Source: Chloroflexota bacterium
GTDB taxonomy: Bacteria > Chloroflexota > Anaerolineae > B4-G1 > DUEL01
Direction of reading: 5' to 3'
Length of the DNA stretch: 41,121 bases
Assembly (NCBI GenBank): GCA_014874475.1
Contig: JADBJJ010000028.1
Location: 1-41,121, forward strand
The translations under genes were made by a program, and so were the position numbers. Each line of letters opens with the position of its first letter. Positions within the stretch are counted from its first letter, which is position 1. The notes below the pieces were generated by a model. The model searched no databases. It was given only the letters and a program-made list of their open reading frames with translations, and was not told the origin of the DNA. Shown here piece after piece: positions 2,273 through 41,121 of the stretch.

Positions 2273-2300
2273 TTGCGATTTCCGGCGCGTGTGGTAAAAT
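2273..2300 (+). promoter_or_regulatory. Sigma70-type promoter for the DksA-like gene
   Basis: TTGCGA (2273-2278), a 16-bp spacer and TAAAAT (2295-2300) lie 43 bp before the start codon and just outside the right end of the defective IS. Confidence 0.5.
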
Positions 2301-2342
2301 AAATTGCTGTCAGGGTAGAGTGATGACTCTTGGAGGAACCCC

Positions 2343-2687
2343 ATGCCCGTCTCAAACGAAGAGTTGCGGAATCGCCTTCTACAAGAACGCGCGTACCTTC
2401 TGGAACAGTTGACACGATCGGGCGAAAACGAATATCGCGGAGCCGGCTACGGAAACCACATCGCCGATGATGCCACAGAGACGTTTGAACAGGCCAAGGA
2501 GGTCTCCCTTCAGCGAAACGAGACCTCTTTGCTCTGGCTGATAAACCATACCTTAGAGAAGTTTGAACTGGGCACGTACGGCATCTGCGAGGCATGTGGT
2601 GCCCCAATTGATCGGGCTCGCTTAAAAGCCCTGCCCTACGCCCTCTACTGTCTGGACTGTCAGGCTCAGATGGAGCAGCGCCGGTAG
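2343..2687 (+). CDS. DksA/TraR-family C4 zinc-finger protein
   Basis: A 114-residue protein with an N-terminal helical coiled-coil-like half and a C-terminal four-cysteine zinc finger: CEAC (C82, C85) and CLDC (C103, C106), with the family's YGICEACGAPI signature. DksA/TraR proteins enter the secondary channel of RNA polymerase, often together with ppGpp, but short members like this one are poorly characterised. ATG 2343 follows GGAGGAACCCC. It is the first gene of a tight run with lspA and rluD (6 bp to the next start), an arrangement I recall for small DksA-like proteins next to lspA in other bacteria. Confidence 0.88.
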   Translation: MPVSNEELRNRLLQERAYLLEQLTRSGENEYRGAGYGNHIADDATETFEQAKEVSLQRNETSLLWLINHTLEKFELGTYGICEACGAPIDRARLKALPYALYCLDCQAQMEQRR

Positions 2688-2693
2688 GGGCAA

Positions 2694-3239
2694 TTGGGGG
2701 AGACGGCCCACAGGGGTGATCCGTTGGCTATTCTCAAAAACCCGGTTTTACCCGCTGTTGCAGGAATAGCCCTCGCCCTGGACCAACTTACCAAGTCCTG
2801 GGTAGTCGCCCATATGAATTTGGGGAAGTCCATAGAAGTGTCTTCATGGCTGGCCCCCCTGTTTTCCTTGACATACGTCACCAATACCGGCATCGCTTTC
2901 GGCCTTTTCCAGGGCATGGGTGATATCCTCCTGATTGTGGTTTTCATCGCTATTGGTGCGATTTTCCTCTTTTACCGCCATCTCCCGGCAGGCCCGATAT
3001 CTCTTCATGTTGCCCTGGGCCTCCAAATGGGCGGCGCTCTGGGCAACCTAGTGGATCGGCTGACACGAGGCGCAGTGGTGGATTTCATAGACCTGAACTT
3101 CTGGCCTCTCCACCACTGGCCCATTTTTAACCTGGCCGATACCAGTATTGTGGCCGGGGTGGTCTTGTTGTTGCTGGTGATGTTGACCGAGAAAGATCGT
3201 CAGCCCGCGCCTGTACCTGAGGAGAGCAGGGTAGAGTAG
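2694..3239 (+). CDS. lspA: Lipoprotein signal peptidase II
   Basis: LspA is the membrane aspartyl protease that removes signal peptides from diacylglyceryl prolipoproteins. The four hydrophobic segments, the DQLTKSW motif, NTGIAFGLF, GGALGNLVDR and FNLADT are all present. The catalytic dyad is D130 (VVDF) and D149 (NLADT), numbered from the TTG at 2694. That TTG lies 6 bp after the upstream stop. A second TTG at 2724, preceded by AGGGGTGAT, gives a length closer to the family norm and puts the Asp pair at 120/139, so the start is uncertain. The window itself contains lipobox proteins that would be substrates. Confidence 0.95.
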   Translation: MGETAHRGDPLAILKNPVLPAVAGIALALDQLTKSWVVAHMNLGKSIEVSSWLAPLFSLTYVTNTGIAFGLFQGMGDILLIVVFIAIGAIFLFYRHLPAGPISLHVALGLQMGGALGNLVDRLTRGAVVDFIDLNFWPLHHWPIFNLADTSIVAGVVLLLLVMLTEKDRQPAPVPEESRVE

Positions 3240-3275
3240 CAAGGCCTGGGACGACGAGTCCCCCTCGCACGGAAG

Positions 3276-4217
3276 ATGGCCCTCTCAGGAGAAACGTTGA
3301 CTGAGGAAACCGCCTTCGTTCTGCCTCCGGAAGAAGCCGGAGCGCGGCTGGACCGGGTACTGGCGGCCCGATTCCCGCAACTCAGCCGGGCCCAACTGCA
3401 GCGGCTCATTCGTTCTGGCGCCATCACCGTCAACGGTTCTGTCGTCCGTCCAGCCTACCGGCTCACACCGGGGGACCACATTGCGGTGACCTTCCCGGAA
3501 GAACCGACGGTCCGTCCCGAACTCCTCCCACTGGACATTGTCTACGAGGACGAGTACCTGCTGGTGGTGAACAAATCAGCGGGAATGGTCGTCCATCCAG
3601 CGGCGCGCATCGTCAGTGGCACACTGGTCAATGCCCTACTGTCTCATTGCCCCCAAGTGGCGGACGTGGGCGGTCCAGACCGGGCGGGCATTGTCCATCG
3701 GCTGGACCGGGAAACCTCGGGGCTGATTGTGGTCGCGAAGAATCCGGAGACCCACGCATCCCTTCAGCGGCAGTTTAAGCGTCGCCTGGTCCGCAAAACC
3801 TACGTCGCGCTGGTGGAAGGACAGGTCCACCCGCGCGAGGGCATCATTGAAGTCCCCATCGGCCGGGACCCGAATGACCGGACCCGCATGGCCGTCTCTC
3901 GGACGGGGCGCCCGGCGATCACGCAATATCGCGTCGTGGAGGTCTTTCCTCAGCACACCCTGCTGGAGGTCCGTCCCCACACAGGGCGGACGCATCAGAT
4001 ACGGGTTCACCTGGCTTGGCTGGGCTACCCGGTGGTGGGAGACCGCGTCTATGGTCGGCGTCGCCAGACGTTGTTGCTGGACCGCCATTTTCTCCATGCT
4101 CGTGAACTGGTCTTCACCCATCCCGTCACCGGCGAGAAACTGGCCCTTTCTGTCCCGCTTCCGCCGGAACTGACGGCCCTGCTGAACCAGTTGCGGCGAG
4201 AGAAAGGCACACGTTAA
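3276..4217 (+). CDS. rluD: RluD-like 23S rRNA pseudouridine synthase
   Basis: An RluA-family pseudouridine synthase of 313 residues. An S4 RNA-binding domain (about 22-75, ARLDRVLAARFPQLSRAQ) is followed by the catalytic domain with HRLDRETSGLIVVAKN, in which D144 is the catalytic Asp. The family modifies uridines in helix 69 of 23S rRNA or related sites. The symbol is given by similarity to the lspA-rluD neighbourhood; the RluA/RluC/RluD choice cannot be proven from sequence alone. ATG 3276 follows GGAAG. The next gene starts 24 bp downstream. Confidence 0.9.
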   Translation: MALSGETLTEETAFVLPPEEAGARLDRVLAARFPQLSRAQLQRLIRSGAITVNGSVVRPAYRLTPGDHIAVTFPEEPTVRPELLPLDIVYEDEYLLVVNKSAGMVVHPAARIVSGTLVNALLSHCPQVADVGGPDRAGIVHRLDRETSGLIVVAKNPETHASLQRQFKRRLVRKTYVALVEGQVHPREGIIEVPIGRDPNDRTRMAVSRTGRPAITQYRVVEVFPQHTLLEVRPHTGRTHQIRVHLAWLGYPVVGDRVYGRRRQTLLLDRHFLHARELVFTHPVTGEKLALSVPLPPELTALLNQLRREKGTR

Positions 4218-8544: not shown

Positions 8545-8598
8545 TGGTGATCCCTCCGGTTTTCTGAGATTCAGCACCCGGTCATCTCCCTCCTGAGT

Positions 8599-8693
8599 GT
8601 TGCTGAAAATAAAGTGTGTGCTGGCACAGGATGGAGCCTTCAGTTCCAGGAACCGGAACCCGGCATTCTCGCCGGCGGTGAATATTCAGCAAC
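8599..8693. repeat. Inverted repeat flanking part of the dispersed element
   Basis: GTTGCTGAA (8599-8607) and TTCAGCAAC (8685-8693) are perfect 9-bp complements 77 bp apart. The second arm is part of the dispersed repeat (copy A), which suggests the region may be a decayed small mobile element. This 299-bp intergenic stretch (8545-8843) holds no other gene. Confidence 0.45.
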
Positions 8694-8710
8694 CCTTATG
8701 GGGAGACTAC
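8646..8710 (+). repeat. Dispersed intergenic repeat, copy A
   Basis: The segment beginning CCAGGAACCGGAA and ending in GGGGAGA matches copy B at 33436-33503 over about 60 bp, with few mismatches and one 1-bp indel. The shared core is AATATTCAGCAACCC followed by TATGGGGAGA. It lies between the divergent adh and ytxH genes. Confidence 0.8.
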
Positions 8711-8759
8711 CCAACACCCCGTTAGACGAAAAATAGGACACATCCCCCTCTTATGGCTC

Positions 8760-8787: not shown

Positions 8788-8843
8788 AAGCATAACTGGA
8801 TATGCAACAGGCCTGCGCTGCCGATTTCAGGGAAAGGAGTGCT

Positions 8844-28274: not shown

Positions 28275-28360
28275 TTTTCCCCTCTGGCTCTATAATAGCA
28301 CGGAACGGAGGGGAAGACAAGGGAGAGACGGGAGTCGGATGTGCCCCAAAATATAACGTT

Positions 28361-28381
28361 AACCCTCTATGGGGGGATTAT
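28361..28381 (+). repeat. Dispersed repeat, partial copy C
   Basis: AACCCTCTATGGGGGGATTA matches the 3' core of copy B (33482-33502) at 20 of 21 positions including the following T. It lies in the 158-bp gap before xseA; the left half of the repeat is missing. Confidence 0.55.
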
Positions 28382-28393
28382 CCGGAGATGGGC

Positions 28394-33218: not shown

Positions 33219-33247
33219 TTGACAATTTCCCTCATTCATTGTATACT
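33219..33247 (+). promoter_or_regulatory. Near-consensus sigma70 promoter of the proS-operon leader
   Basis: TTGACA (33219-33224), a 17-bp spacer and TATACT (33242-33247). This is the best promoter match in the window. Transcription should start near 33254. Confidence 0.85.
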
Positions 33248-33273
33248 ATAATCGCTCTTTCCAGAGGAGTCCG

Positions 33274-33324
33274 ATGGATACGTATCGCCTGCCCAGCCCG
33301 CCGGTCCCTGAGAGCCAGACCTGA
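33274..33324 (+). CDS. Putative Pro-rich leader peptide (16 aa)
   Basis: ATG 33274 follows AGAGGAG and encodes MDTYRLPSPPVPESQT before TGA. Four of 16 codons are Pro, clustered at codons 7-12 (CCC, CCG, CCG, CCT). The last three sense codons and the stop lie in the 5' arm and loop of hairpin 1. Its size, position and link to a proS operon fit a ribosome-stalling attenuator peptide. Such Pro content could also arise by chance in C-rich DNA. Confidence 0.45.
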   Translation: MDTYRLPSPPVPESQT

Positions 33325-33372
33325 TGGTCTGGTCGGGCGCGCTGGGCCGGCCCCTGTCCCCAGATATACCAG

Positions 33373-33403
33373 CCAGCCTCCCAGACCCGGAGGCTGGTTT
33401 TTT
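33373..33403 (+). terminator. Intrinsic terminator of the leader
   Basis: CCAGCCTCC (33373-33381) pairs perfectly with GGAGGCTGG (33389-33397), with a 7-nt loop and six T residues immediately after. It is a textbook Rho-independent terminator and the only one in the window with a full T-run. Confidence 0.9.
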
Positions 33404-33435
33404 ATAGGACGCAGATATGGCATGCTCGCCTCTAT

Positions 33436-33503
33436 CCAGGAAACGGAATCCGGCATTCTTGCGCGGCGGTCAATATTCAGCAACCCTCTATGGGGAGATT
33501 ATT
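33436..33503 (+). repeat. Dispersed intergenic repeat, copy B
   Basis: Matches copy A (8646-8710) over about 60 bp, beginning CCAGGAAACGGAATCCGGCA and sharing AATATTCAGCAACCC then TATGGGGAGA. It fills the space between the leader terminator and the metallophosphoesterase ATG. Confidence 0.8.
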
Positions 33504-33518: not shown

Positions 33519-34147
33519 ATGAAAATTCTGGCCCTCAGTGACCAGGTGGTGGAGTCCATCTATAGCGCCGACGTTCGGGAGCGGTTCGGGGATGTGGGCC
33601 TGCTCCTCTCCTGCGGCGACCTGCCCTATTCCTACCTGGAATATCTGGTCACCTTACTGGGCGTTCCCGCCTTCTATGTCCACGGCAATCATGACCAGCC
33701 GGAAGACCTGGGCCAGGGGGAATTGCTGACCGGGCCGCGCGGCTGGGTTAACCTGGATGGCCGTACGGTGCGGGTGGGCTCTATCCTACTGGCGGGGCTG
33801 GAGGGCGCTCTGCTCTATAAGCCCAACGCGCCCTTTCAGTACAGCGAATGGGAGATGCGCTGGAAAGTTGTCCATCTGTTGCCGGCTCTCCTGTTCAACC
33901 GGCTGCGATACGGGCGGTATCTGGATATCCTGGTGACCCATTCCCCGCCTCTGGGCATCCACAACGACATTGATTTACCCCACCGGGGGTTTGCTGTCTT
34001 CCGGTGGTTGATGGAGCGCTTCCGTCCGCGCTACTTGCTGCATGGCCATAAGCACGTCTACAAGCCTCAGGCCACCCGTACCCGCTTCCGAGAGACTCTA
34101 GTGGTGAACGTGTACCCCGTTGCCGTTCTGGAGTTGGAGGACATCTG

Positions 34148-38312: not shown

Positions 38313-41121
38313 ATGCAAAACGCGGCCACCAATCCTCTCAACCCAGAAGTCCTTGCCAGATGGACGGCGGACTACCGCCAGGCCGTTGGCGATGCGTGGC
38401 AGTGGCTGGGCCCTGAATCGGACGCCCGGGATACCCCGCGCGTGCCGCTCACCGACGTCTTCGTCCTCCTGGAGGCCCTCCACCGGCCCCCACCCAGCCC
38501 GACGCAAAAGGAATACCCTGCCGACCTGCCGCCGGAGGCAGCGCGCTGGGAACACGCTGGGATGCCACCGCCCTTCGCTTCCCCACCCGAACCCCTGCCG
38601 CCAGAGGCAGCGCGCGGGGAACACGCTGGGATGCCGCTGCCCTCCGCTCCCCCACCTGAACCCATGCCACTGGGGCGGGCGCTGCAGGAATGCCGGCATA
38701 TGGTCCTCCTGGGCGAGCCTGGCAGCGGCAAGAGCACCACCCTTCAGTTCATCGGCCTCTGTTTTGCCCGCGCCGGAGAGGGCTGGCCTCAGCAGCGCTT
38801 GGGCCTCCCCGAAGACCGGTTGCCCATCCTGCTCCGCCTGCCGGACGTGGCCCGGGAACTGGCCACTTCCCCGTCCTCCACTCTTTTGGACTGCCTGGCC
38901 GGAGAGGTGCGCCAACGCCTTCAGATAGACAAAGGATCGGCGTGCGCGCTGATCGCGCGCTGGGCTGAGAACGACGGCCTGCTGGTGCTGCTGGACGGGC
39001 CTGACGAAGTGGAGAGCGACCGGCGCGGCGGCGTACGCGATGCGGTTCTGAAATTCGCCCACTCCCCCATCGGCGAGAAGGCGCGCCTGGTGGTGGCCTC
39101 CCGTATCGCCGGTTATATCCTGCTGGGAGGACCGTTCCGGGATTATCAGTTGCGCCCGCTCACCGGGCCGGAGGATAGAAAAATCTTCCTGAAGAACTGG
39201 CTGCGCTCCCTGCGCTCCGACTGGGGGGACGAAGAGGCCGGGCAGCAAGCGGAGCGGCTGCTGGCCGCCCTGGAGGGCCACCCGGCCCTGCGCCGCCTGC
39301 TGGGCATCCCGCTTCTCCTGCGCCTGTGCGCCGAAATCTACGCTGGGGGCAGAGAGATTGCCCGCAGCCGCGCCGACCTCTACCGCCGCTACTTTGAGGT
39401 GCTGCTGGACCGGGCCGAGGGGCGCGGCCTGCATCAGAAGAGGCGGGGAGCGCTTCTGGACGTAGCTGAGGCGCTGGCCTGGCACCTGCATCTGGGCGGC
39501 GACGGGCGGCCGGAGGCGTGCGTTCAGGCCCTCCTGAATCGGCTGGCGAAGAACAGGGAGGAGGCTGAGGCGTTCCTGGATGACCTGCGAGCAAAAGCAG
39601 GGTTAATCGTGCGCCTGGACGGGCGACTGGCCTTCAGCCACACCACCTTGCAGGAGGCGCTGGTGGCGGAGCGGCTGAAAAAAGCCTGGGAGCGGAACCG
39701 GCGCGGGGCCTGGCGGTTTCTGCGGCCGCGCCTGCACCGGGAGGAGTGGCGGGAGCCGCTGCTCCTGCTGGCAGGGGGGCTGGAGGAAGCGGAGCGGTTC
39801 ATCCGGAAGGTGGAGCGGGCAGGCAGCCCCTCTGAGCCCATCCTGCGCCGGGACCGCCGCCTGGCGCTGGCGATGTTTGCAGAGCGGGGGCAGGTGGGGT
39901 CGCTCATCCGGGCCCTGAAGGATGGGGATTGGGTGGTGCGCCGGGCGGCAGCGGAGGCGCTGGGGGGAATCGGAGACCCATGGGCGGTGGAGCCCCTCAT
40001 CCGGGCCTTGAAGGATGAGGATTGGCGGGTGCGCCAGGCGGCAGCGGAGGCGCTGGGGGCGATTGGAGACCGGCAGGCGGTGGAGCCCCTCATCCAGGCC
40101 CTGAAGGATGATGAGGGGGATGTGCGCCAGGCGGCAGCGAAGGCGCTGGGGAGAATTGGAGACTCGCAGGCGGTGGAGCCCCTCATCCGGGCCCTGAAGG
40201 GTGAGGATTGGTGGGTGCGCCGGGCGGCAGCGGAGGCGCTGGGGAGAATTGGAGACTGGCAGGCGGTGGAGCCCCTCATCCAGGCCCTGAAGGATGAGGA
40301 TTGGGATGTGCGCCAGGCGGCAGCGAAGGCGCTGAGGGAAATCGGAGACCTGCGGGGGATAGAGCCCCTCATCCAGGCCCTGAAAGATGAAGATAAGGGT
40401 GTGCGCCGGGCGGCAGCGGAGGTGCTGGGGGAAATCGGCGAGCCGGCCGTGCTGCCCCTCATCCAGGCCCTGAAGGATGAAGATAAGGGTGTGCGCCAGG
40501 CGGCAGCGGAGGCGCTGGGGAAAATCGGGGACCCGCGGGCGGTGAAGCCCCTCATCCGGGCCCTGAAGGATGAGGATAAGCGGGTGCGCCGGGTGGCAGC
40601 CTGGGTGCTGGGGAAAATTGGAGACTCGCAGGTGGTGGAGCCCCTCATCCGGGCCCTGAAGGATGGGGATTGGTGGGTGCGCCAGGCGGCAGCCTGGGCG
40701 CTGGGGAGAATTGGAGACTGGCAGGCGGTGGAGCCCCTCATCCGGGCCCTGAAGGATGAGGATTGGGGGGTGCGCTGGGCGGCAGCGGAGGCGCTGGGGA
40801 GAATTGGAGACTGGCAGGCGGTGGAGCGCCTCATCCGGGCCCTGAAGGATGAGGATTGGGAGGTGCGCCGGGCGGCAGCCTGGGCGCTGGGGGCGATCGG
40901 AGACCGGCAGGCGGTGGAGCCCCTCATCCGGGCCTTGAAGGATGAGGATTGGCGGGTGCGCCAGGCGGCAGCGGAGGCGCTGGGGGCGATTGGAGACCGG
41001 CAGGCGGTGGAGCCCCTCATCCAGGCCCTGAAGGATGAAGATAAGGGTGTGCGCCAGGCGGCAGCGGAGGCGCTGGGGAAAATCGGGGACCCGCGGGCGG
41101 TGAAGCCTTTCATCCAGGCCC
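38313..41121 (+). CDS. NACHT NTPase with C-terminal HEAT repeats (runs off window)
   Basis: An uninterrupted frame of at least 936 codons from ATG 38313. The N-terminal about 120 residues include [11 protein letters not shown] and a Pro-rich duplicated linker. The NACHT domain follows: Walker [10 protein letters not shown] (K140), Walker [12 protein letters not shown] (D228, D231, E232), the sensor-like VVASRIAGY, then LPLTGPED-type helices ([10 protein letters not shown]), [27 protein letters not shown] and [15 protein letters not shown], all typical of bacterial NACHT STAND proteins. From residue about 531, 13 full HEAT repeats of 31 residues (one of 30) and the start of a 14th follow. No separate effector domain is visible at the N-terminus. 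Bacterial NACHT proteins include antiphage factors; that role here is inferred. Confidence 0.9.
38526..38663 (+). repeat. Two 69-bp tandem repeats coding the NACHT linker
   Basis: 38526-38594 and 38595-38663 are close copies of 23 codons each, both with LPPEAAR, EHAGMP and PPEP. They lie in frame between the N-terminal segment and the NACHT domain. Confidence 0.85.
39903..41121 (+). repeat. Near-identical 93-bp tandem repeats (HEAT array)
   Basis: The CTC codon of the LIRAL/LIQAL segment recurs at 39903, 39996, 40089, 40182, 40275, 40368, 40458, 40551, 40644, 40737, 40830, 40923 and 41016, and as TTC at 41109. All steps are 93 bp except one of 90. Each unit encodes [10 protein letters not shown], a variable W or K site, VR, AAAEALG and IGD. 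Longer blocks are exactly repeated: 39983-40111 equals 40910-41038 (129 bp). Confidence 0.95.

Follow-up and report, generated by a model that had tools for sequence, protein, structure and literature searches.

The window, by which we mean the whole analysed stretch of 41,121 bp from a Chloroflexota bacterium (GenBank assembly GCA_014874475.1, contig JADBJJ010000028.1), contains three copies of a dispersed repeat, A, B and C (Table 1). All three lie upstream of plus-strand genes, as a sequence-only reading of the window had reported, with ORFs at 8802/8844 (A), 33519 (B) and 28433 (C). The match of about 60 bp that it described between A (8646-8710) and B (33436-33503) is borne out in a BLAST-type comparison (90% identity across ~67 bp, E 3.6e-17), and a 21-bp core, AACCCTCTATGGGGAGATTAT, is present at B and, with one mismatch, at C, where shuffled sequences are expected to give 0.00 such matches. 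The repeats are real, but their extents needed revision: the stretch first described as A covers just the right half of an element spanning 8580-8711, and B continues leftwards to about 33417. The 9-bp inverted partner noted for A at 8599-8607 is also genuine and belongs to a longer left terminal repeat starting at 8580. Copy A gives two profile matches, 8585-8644 to model positions 3-83 and 8645-8711 to positions 180-248, and the right edge of B is 15 bp before the ATG at 33519. Copy C, first placed at 28361-28381, retains the core but reaches only E 2.5 in the profile search alone, below acceptance; its support is the 21-bp match together with a left-end remnant, AAAATATAACG, seen by eye at 28348-28358.

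Table 1. Repeat copies A, B and C in the window, with the ends and target duplications of copy A.
Feature	Position	Strand	Basis
Left target duplication of A, CAGCACCC	8572-8579	+	Sequence; 7/8 identical to 8712-8719
Copy A, complete element of 132 bp with an internal deletion	8580-8711	+	Profile matches and located ends
Left terminal inverted repeat of A, GGTCATCTCCCTCCTGAGTGTTGCTGAAAATA	8580-8611	+	Matches the end pattern without a mismatch
Right terminal inverted repeat of A, minus-strand GGTAGTCTCCCC..GGTTGCTGAATATT	8681-8711	-	Base pairs to the left end when folded
Right target duplication of A, CAACACCC	8712-8719	+	Sequence
Copy B, right-hand part, model 162-246	33417-33503	+	Profile search; orthologous loci of same-genus genomes lack it
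Copy C, relic in which the left-end remnant AAAATATAACG adjoins the right end AACCCTCTATGGGGGGATTATCC	28348-28383	+	Core match, by eye

Searching the window's own genome (3,015,132 bases) with a full copy returned 38 BLAST matches, and BLAST and profile searches together give about 35 whole or broken copies in this 3.0-Mb genome after merging. Two weak BLAST matches (C7:19712-19748 and C11:31545-31591, the contig preceding the coordinates) and a separate short element (C12:550-702) were left out of this number. The end pattern has 50 matches against one for a reversed control. A profile scan of 800 kb of contiguous stretches recovers the same nine copies and adds only two weak matches, which cover the palindrome region only and were not counted (C21:400696-400834, E 4e-4; C22:159417-159488, E 0.004), so the census of the family is near complete.

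Full copies begin GGTAGTCTCCC...GTTGCTGAA and close with an inverted version of this sequence; the consensuses drawn up by eye for the left end, GGTAGTCTCCCTCCTGAGKGTTGCTGAAAATATAACGC, and for the inverted right end, GGTAGTCTCCCCATAGAGGGTTGCTGAATATTCACCGC, are alike at 29 of 38 positions. Among the twelve copies that retain both ends, lengths are 195-292 bp, falling to 132-170 bp in those with an internal deletion such as A, and every one of the twelve (132-292 bp) is non-coding and too short for a transposase gene. Broken copies that keep only the right part number 16, versus 7 with only the left part (p=0.09, sorted by eye from the profile matches). Copies diverge from one another by ~10-30%, and recent movement is therefore not demonstrated. 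A GC-rich palindrome is present inside many copies; as an independent repeat it was rejected at the stringency tested, with 10 of its 10 genome sites lying inside family members. Two copies have matching changes in both ends, GGTCGTCTCC/GGAGACGACC in one (L073, G000:C16:101383-101550) and GTAATCTTC/GAAGATTAC in the other (L061, G000:C19:44464-44716); these may reflect joint change of the two ends, and may be subfamily markers.

The sequences on either side of the copies carry a clear signature of insertion. Across the twelve both-ended copies the flanking 8-mers agree at a total of 78 out of 96 positions, where permuted flanks average 49.0; none of 5000 permutations reaches this value (z 11.2), and z peaks at a length of 8. 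The test allowed shifts of up to 3 bp to the left and 1 bp to the right, with the permutations treated alike, and a fixed-offset version has modest peaks only, at 8 and 9 bp. Four copies have perfect 8-bp duplications (GGAAGATC in C19, GCTTTGCC in C22, CGCGCTTG in C32 and GACCTCAT in C11), the flanks of A, CAGCACCC and CAACACCC, are 7/8 identical, and three of the twelve are near chance (5, 5 and 4 of 8, where the permuted mean is about 4.1). One copy (L062, G000:C22:331187-331478) has a palindromic target, with TTCAGGGCGGGC to the left and GCCCGCCCTGAA to the right of the duplicated GCTTTGCC, which would place the element in a hairpin loop, in this single case.

Loci lacking the element are found in relatives. 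In three genomes of the same genus (G002, G003 and G004) the loci orthologous to those of A and of B keep the flanking genes and are missing the element, and the sequence adjoining the gap has diverged. B-like copies are seen in one of 60 genomes, the window's own, so the family is either restricted or too diverged elsewhere; most of the 60 are fragmented, which hides repeats. The sequence-only reading had proposed a genome-wide count of copies and their target duplications as a check, and this yields about 35 dispersed copies with 8-bp duplications. The outcomes it had named as telling against its proposal (no further copies, ends that are not conserved, or placement at random, including within genes) are none of them observed.

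Placement relative to genes was assessed with gene calls from a home-made codon scorer. Thirty-three of 35 copies are intergenic, with intergenic sequence making up 10% of the sampled genome; of the two copies scored as lying within genes, one overlaps an ORF with a weak score (19.7) and the other the very 5' end of a long ORF. By spacer type, 19 of the 33 intergenic copies are in tandem, 12 in divergent and 2 in convergent spacers, where spacer length predicts 72%, 20% and 8% respectively. The upstream placement described earlier thus holds, but it is mostly set by the available space and follows largely from gene spacing; copies are slightly too frequent in divergent spacers (12/33, with a fraction of 0.199 expected; p=0.027) and not in convergent ones (p=1.0).

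The same reading offered a shared regulatory block as an alternative, in which the 60 bp would be a conserved cis element, such as a promoter, a leader or a binding site, that selection maintains in front of a set of genes. The position of all three window copies, the proximity of B to a start codon, the divergent excess and the orientation of the copies, with the right end toward a gene start in 25 of 33 intergenic cases, are all compatible with such a role. Left ends, however, face gene starts in 18 of the 33, and the informative contrast among these intergenic copies (13 vs 6, p=0.17) shows no significant orientation bias. Insertion is shown by the target duplications and by copies complete with both inverted repeats, an Rfam search of the window returned no match at gathering thresholds, and the single promoter-like match around B is on the minus strand. 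Because same-genus relatives retain the downstream genes without the repeat, a regulatory origin is not supported, and we consider it very improbable; local effects of individual copies on expression are possible.

A search for an insertion sequence with the same ends (GTTGCTGAATATT), also suggested by the sequence-only reading, was largely successful. Contig C11 carries an IS1-like insertion sequence of 1182 bp (2276-3457, minus strand), with ends AGTAGTCTCCCTCTTGAGTGTT and GGTAGTCTCCATGTCAAGTGTTGCTGAG and a right end reading GGTAGTCTCC...GTGTTGCTGAG. Its ends match those of the family at 18-22 of 28 positions, with 21 and 22 for the left consensus and 18 and 21 for the right. The left end of a second insertion sequence, found at contig breaks in C7 and C11, matches at 24 and 21. 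Sites reaching 21 are scarce, with only 9 and 8 in 800 kb, approximately the number of family copies there (9).

The C11 element encodes two overlapping minus-strand frames, orfA (154 aa, 2916-3380 on L178) and orfB (232 aa, 2239-2937 on L178), and the overlap contains an A7 run, GGTGAAAAAAAGG, as for IS1 frameshifting (putatively -1). The best NCBIfam match of orfA is an IS1 model. It scores 33.1 bits against the IS1/IS1595 zinc domain model NF050000, above the cut-off of 28, and 59.2 bits against the IS1 equivalog NF033558, below the cut-off of 100; joining the ORFs still leaves the product below the cut-offs (56.9 vs 100 for NF033558, 14.3 vs 24.1 for PF03400). A defence-gene library gave no match to orfA. 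The flanks of the C11 element, GGTCAAGT and GGGACTCA, contain no recognisable duplication, and its transposase has K where two related transposases have E in an ER motif, so that this complete copy may be inactive. The second insertion sequence has an identical 77-bp left end at two contig breaks (the start of C7 and the end of C11), and there are therefore at least two near-identical copies whose bodies are unassembled; it is a better candidate than the C11 copy for a recently active driver. Related transposases are encoded elsewhere in this genome, at C6 and C12, as well as in six of 25 other genomes, and those at C6 and in the same-order genome G020 also have IS1 models as their best NCBIfam matches. 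The G020 transposase passes PF03400 (37.4 vs 24.1), both ends of its insertion sequence start GGTA (GGTATTGTCCC), and a perfect 8-bp duplication, GATTTATC, was read by eye. The element at C12:550-702 (L151), excluded from the census, is a different short element with the same type of ends (GGTAGTCTCCCTCTGGGGTGTTGCTG ... inverted) and suggests that the same driver serves a further MITE family.

Given the inverted ends, the 8-bp duplications, the ~35 dispersed copies, the element-free loci and a resident insertion sequence with similar ends, we conclude that the repeat is very probably a MITE that an IS1-like insertion sequence mobilises in trans through its transposase, and the earlier suggestion of a decayed MITE-like element is supported on all of these grounds. 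In the mechanism that we propose, an IS1-like transposase, supplied by the C11 insertion sequence or by the second, unassembled form, would act in trans on a short non-coding transposon with terminal inverted repeats GGTAGTCTCCC...GTTGCTGAA, and insertion would stagger the target by 8 bp and leave an 8-bp direct repeat behind. Copies would subsequently decay, through internal deletion (A), loss of the left part (B) or reduction to a relic (C), and would persist mainly between genes because insertions into genes are selected against; such selection would explain the intergenic bias of the family.

Movement of the MITE by a transposase of another family, for example IS1595 or IS256, seems decidedly unlikely. 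Elements of these families also make duplications of ~8 bp, and orfA matches the zinc domain shared by IS1 and IS1595 and, weakly, that of IS256, with orfB matching IS256 at 0.019. The IS1 models preferred by orfA and by the C6 and G020 transposases in NCBIfam nonetheless argue for IS1, as does the IS1-like overlap of two ORFs with its A7 run. We also considered a palindrome of the REP/BIME type, mobilised by a RAYT (tyrosine) transposase, since GTAG, the tag of one REP class, is in both ends, the copies are extragenic and copy A folds as RNA into a single long hairpin (z -4.23); the hairpin is a consequence of the inverted ends and is no evidence of RNA function. To our knowledge 8-bp target duplications and ends matching a two-ORF insertion sequence are not expected of REP/RAYT systems, and both are seen here. 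REPs are reported in Chloroflexi, and their length is given as 20-40 bp (PMC3733652), whereas the elements here are 132-292 bp. On their size and their 8-bp duplications we reject a REP/RAYT origin, which has scarcely any likelihood.

The family, with its likely IS1-like driver, adds one more case to a well-known class of element. ISAba3-like elements of the IS1 family are described in PMC6382973 as having 24-bp ends GGTGGTGTTTCAAAAAGTATGCTG, GGTGGT starts and 8-bp target duplications; the ends here also begin GGTRGT and leave 8 bp, but those elements are autonomous insertion sequences of Moraxella/Acinetobacter with other sequence past the first bases, and the present family is non-coding. 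MITEAba12, in the same paper, is likewise a short bacterial MITE (111-114 bp, near genes) recognised by ends shared with a resident insertion sequence and by target duplications, but its partner is ISAba12, its duplications are 9 bp, its ends are unrelated, and it is highly uniform where the family here is decayed. Features in common with the IS1 family are, in the partner candidate, an orfA with a zinc ribbon, an orfB that overlaps it and a run of A within the overlap, and, at the MITE copies, the 8-bp duplications, whereas the C11 copy does not reach the main IS1 cut-offs and, at about 380 aa when joined, is longer. MITEs tied to other insertion sequences are described in PMC3718332 and PMC11448079, and among titles and abstract openings of the open-access literature we found no IS1-family MITEs and no MITEs in Chloroflexi.

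The end sequence GTAGTCTCCCTCTTGAGTGTT occurs exactly in nine genome-contig stretches assigned to Chloroflexi/Chloroflexota, Anaerolineales, Thermoflexia, Armatimonadetes, Latescibacterota and Deltaproteobacteria, all of them MAGs in which binning errors are possible. For five short end pairs in other genomes the flanks match at 8, 7, 7, 2 and 3 of 8 positions, two of the five being without a duplication. We can envisage that IS1-like MITEs with GTAGTCTCCCTCTTGAGTGTT in common but with unrelated interiors constitute a broad superfamily, as yet undescribed, across Chloroflexota and further phyla, and in addition that some right-hand halves here, such as B, have been kept as a 5'-leader/promoter module of the abutting gene, a combination that we regard as speculative and rather unlikely. 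The repeats of the window are accounted for as ordinary transposon debris with a likely driver, so annotators need not take the copies for regulatory sites; they add an IS1-like MITE family in a Chloroflexota lineage, with a common end sequence as a handle for finding more.

Two other features of the window are of separate interest. Just upstream of copy B, 33219-33407 (plus strand) is a likely small-RNA gene, with a TTGACA - 17 bp - TATACT promoter read by eye, a long hairpin and a terminator at 33371-33399. It is conserved in six of six same-genus relatives (72-88%) and has a fold z of -3.95; it has no credible match in Rfam, and of 34 pairs a single one shows a double change, too few for covariation to establish the fold as yet. 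At the right end of the window an open frame (38313-41121, plus strand) runs off the sequence; it encodes a P-loop motif, GEPGSGKST, and many 31-residue HEAT-like repeats, with 93-bp tandem repeats from 39770, and its product is presumably a NACHT/HEAT-type protein.
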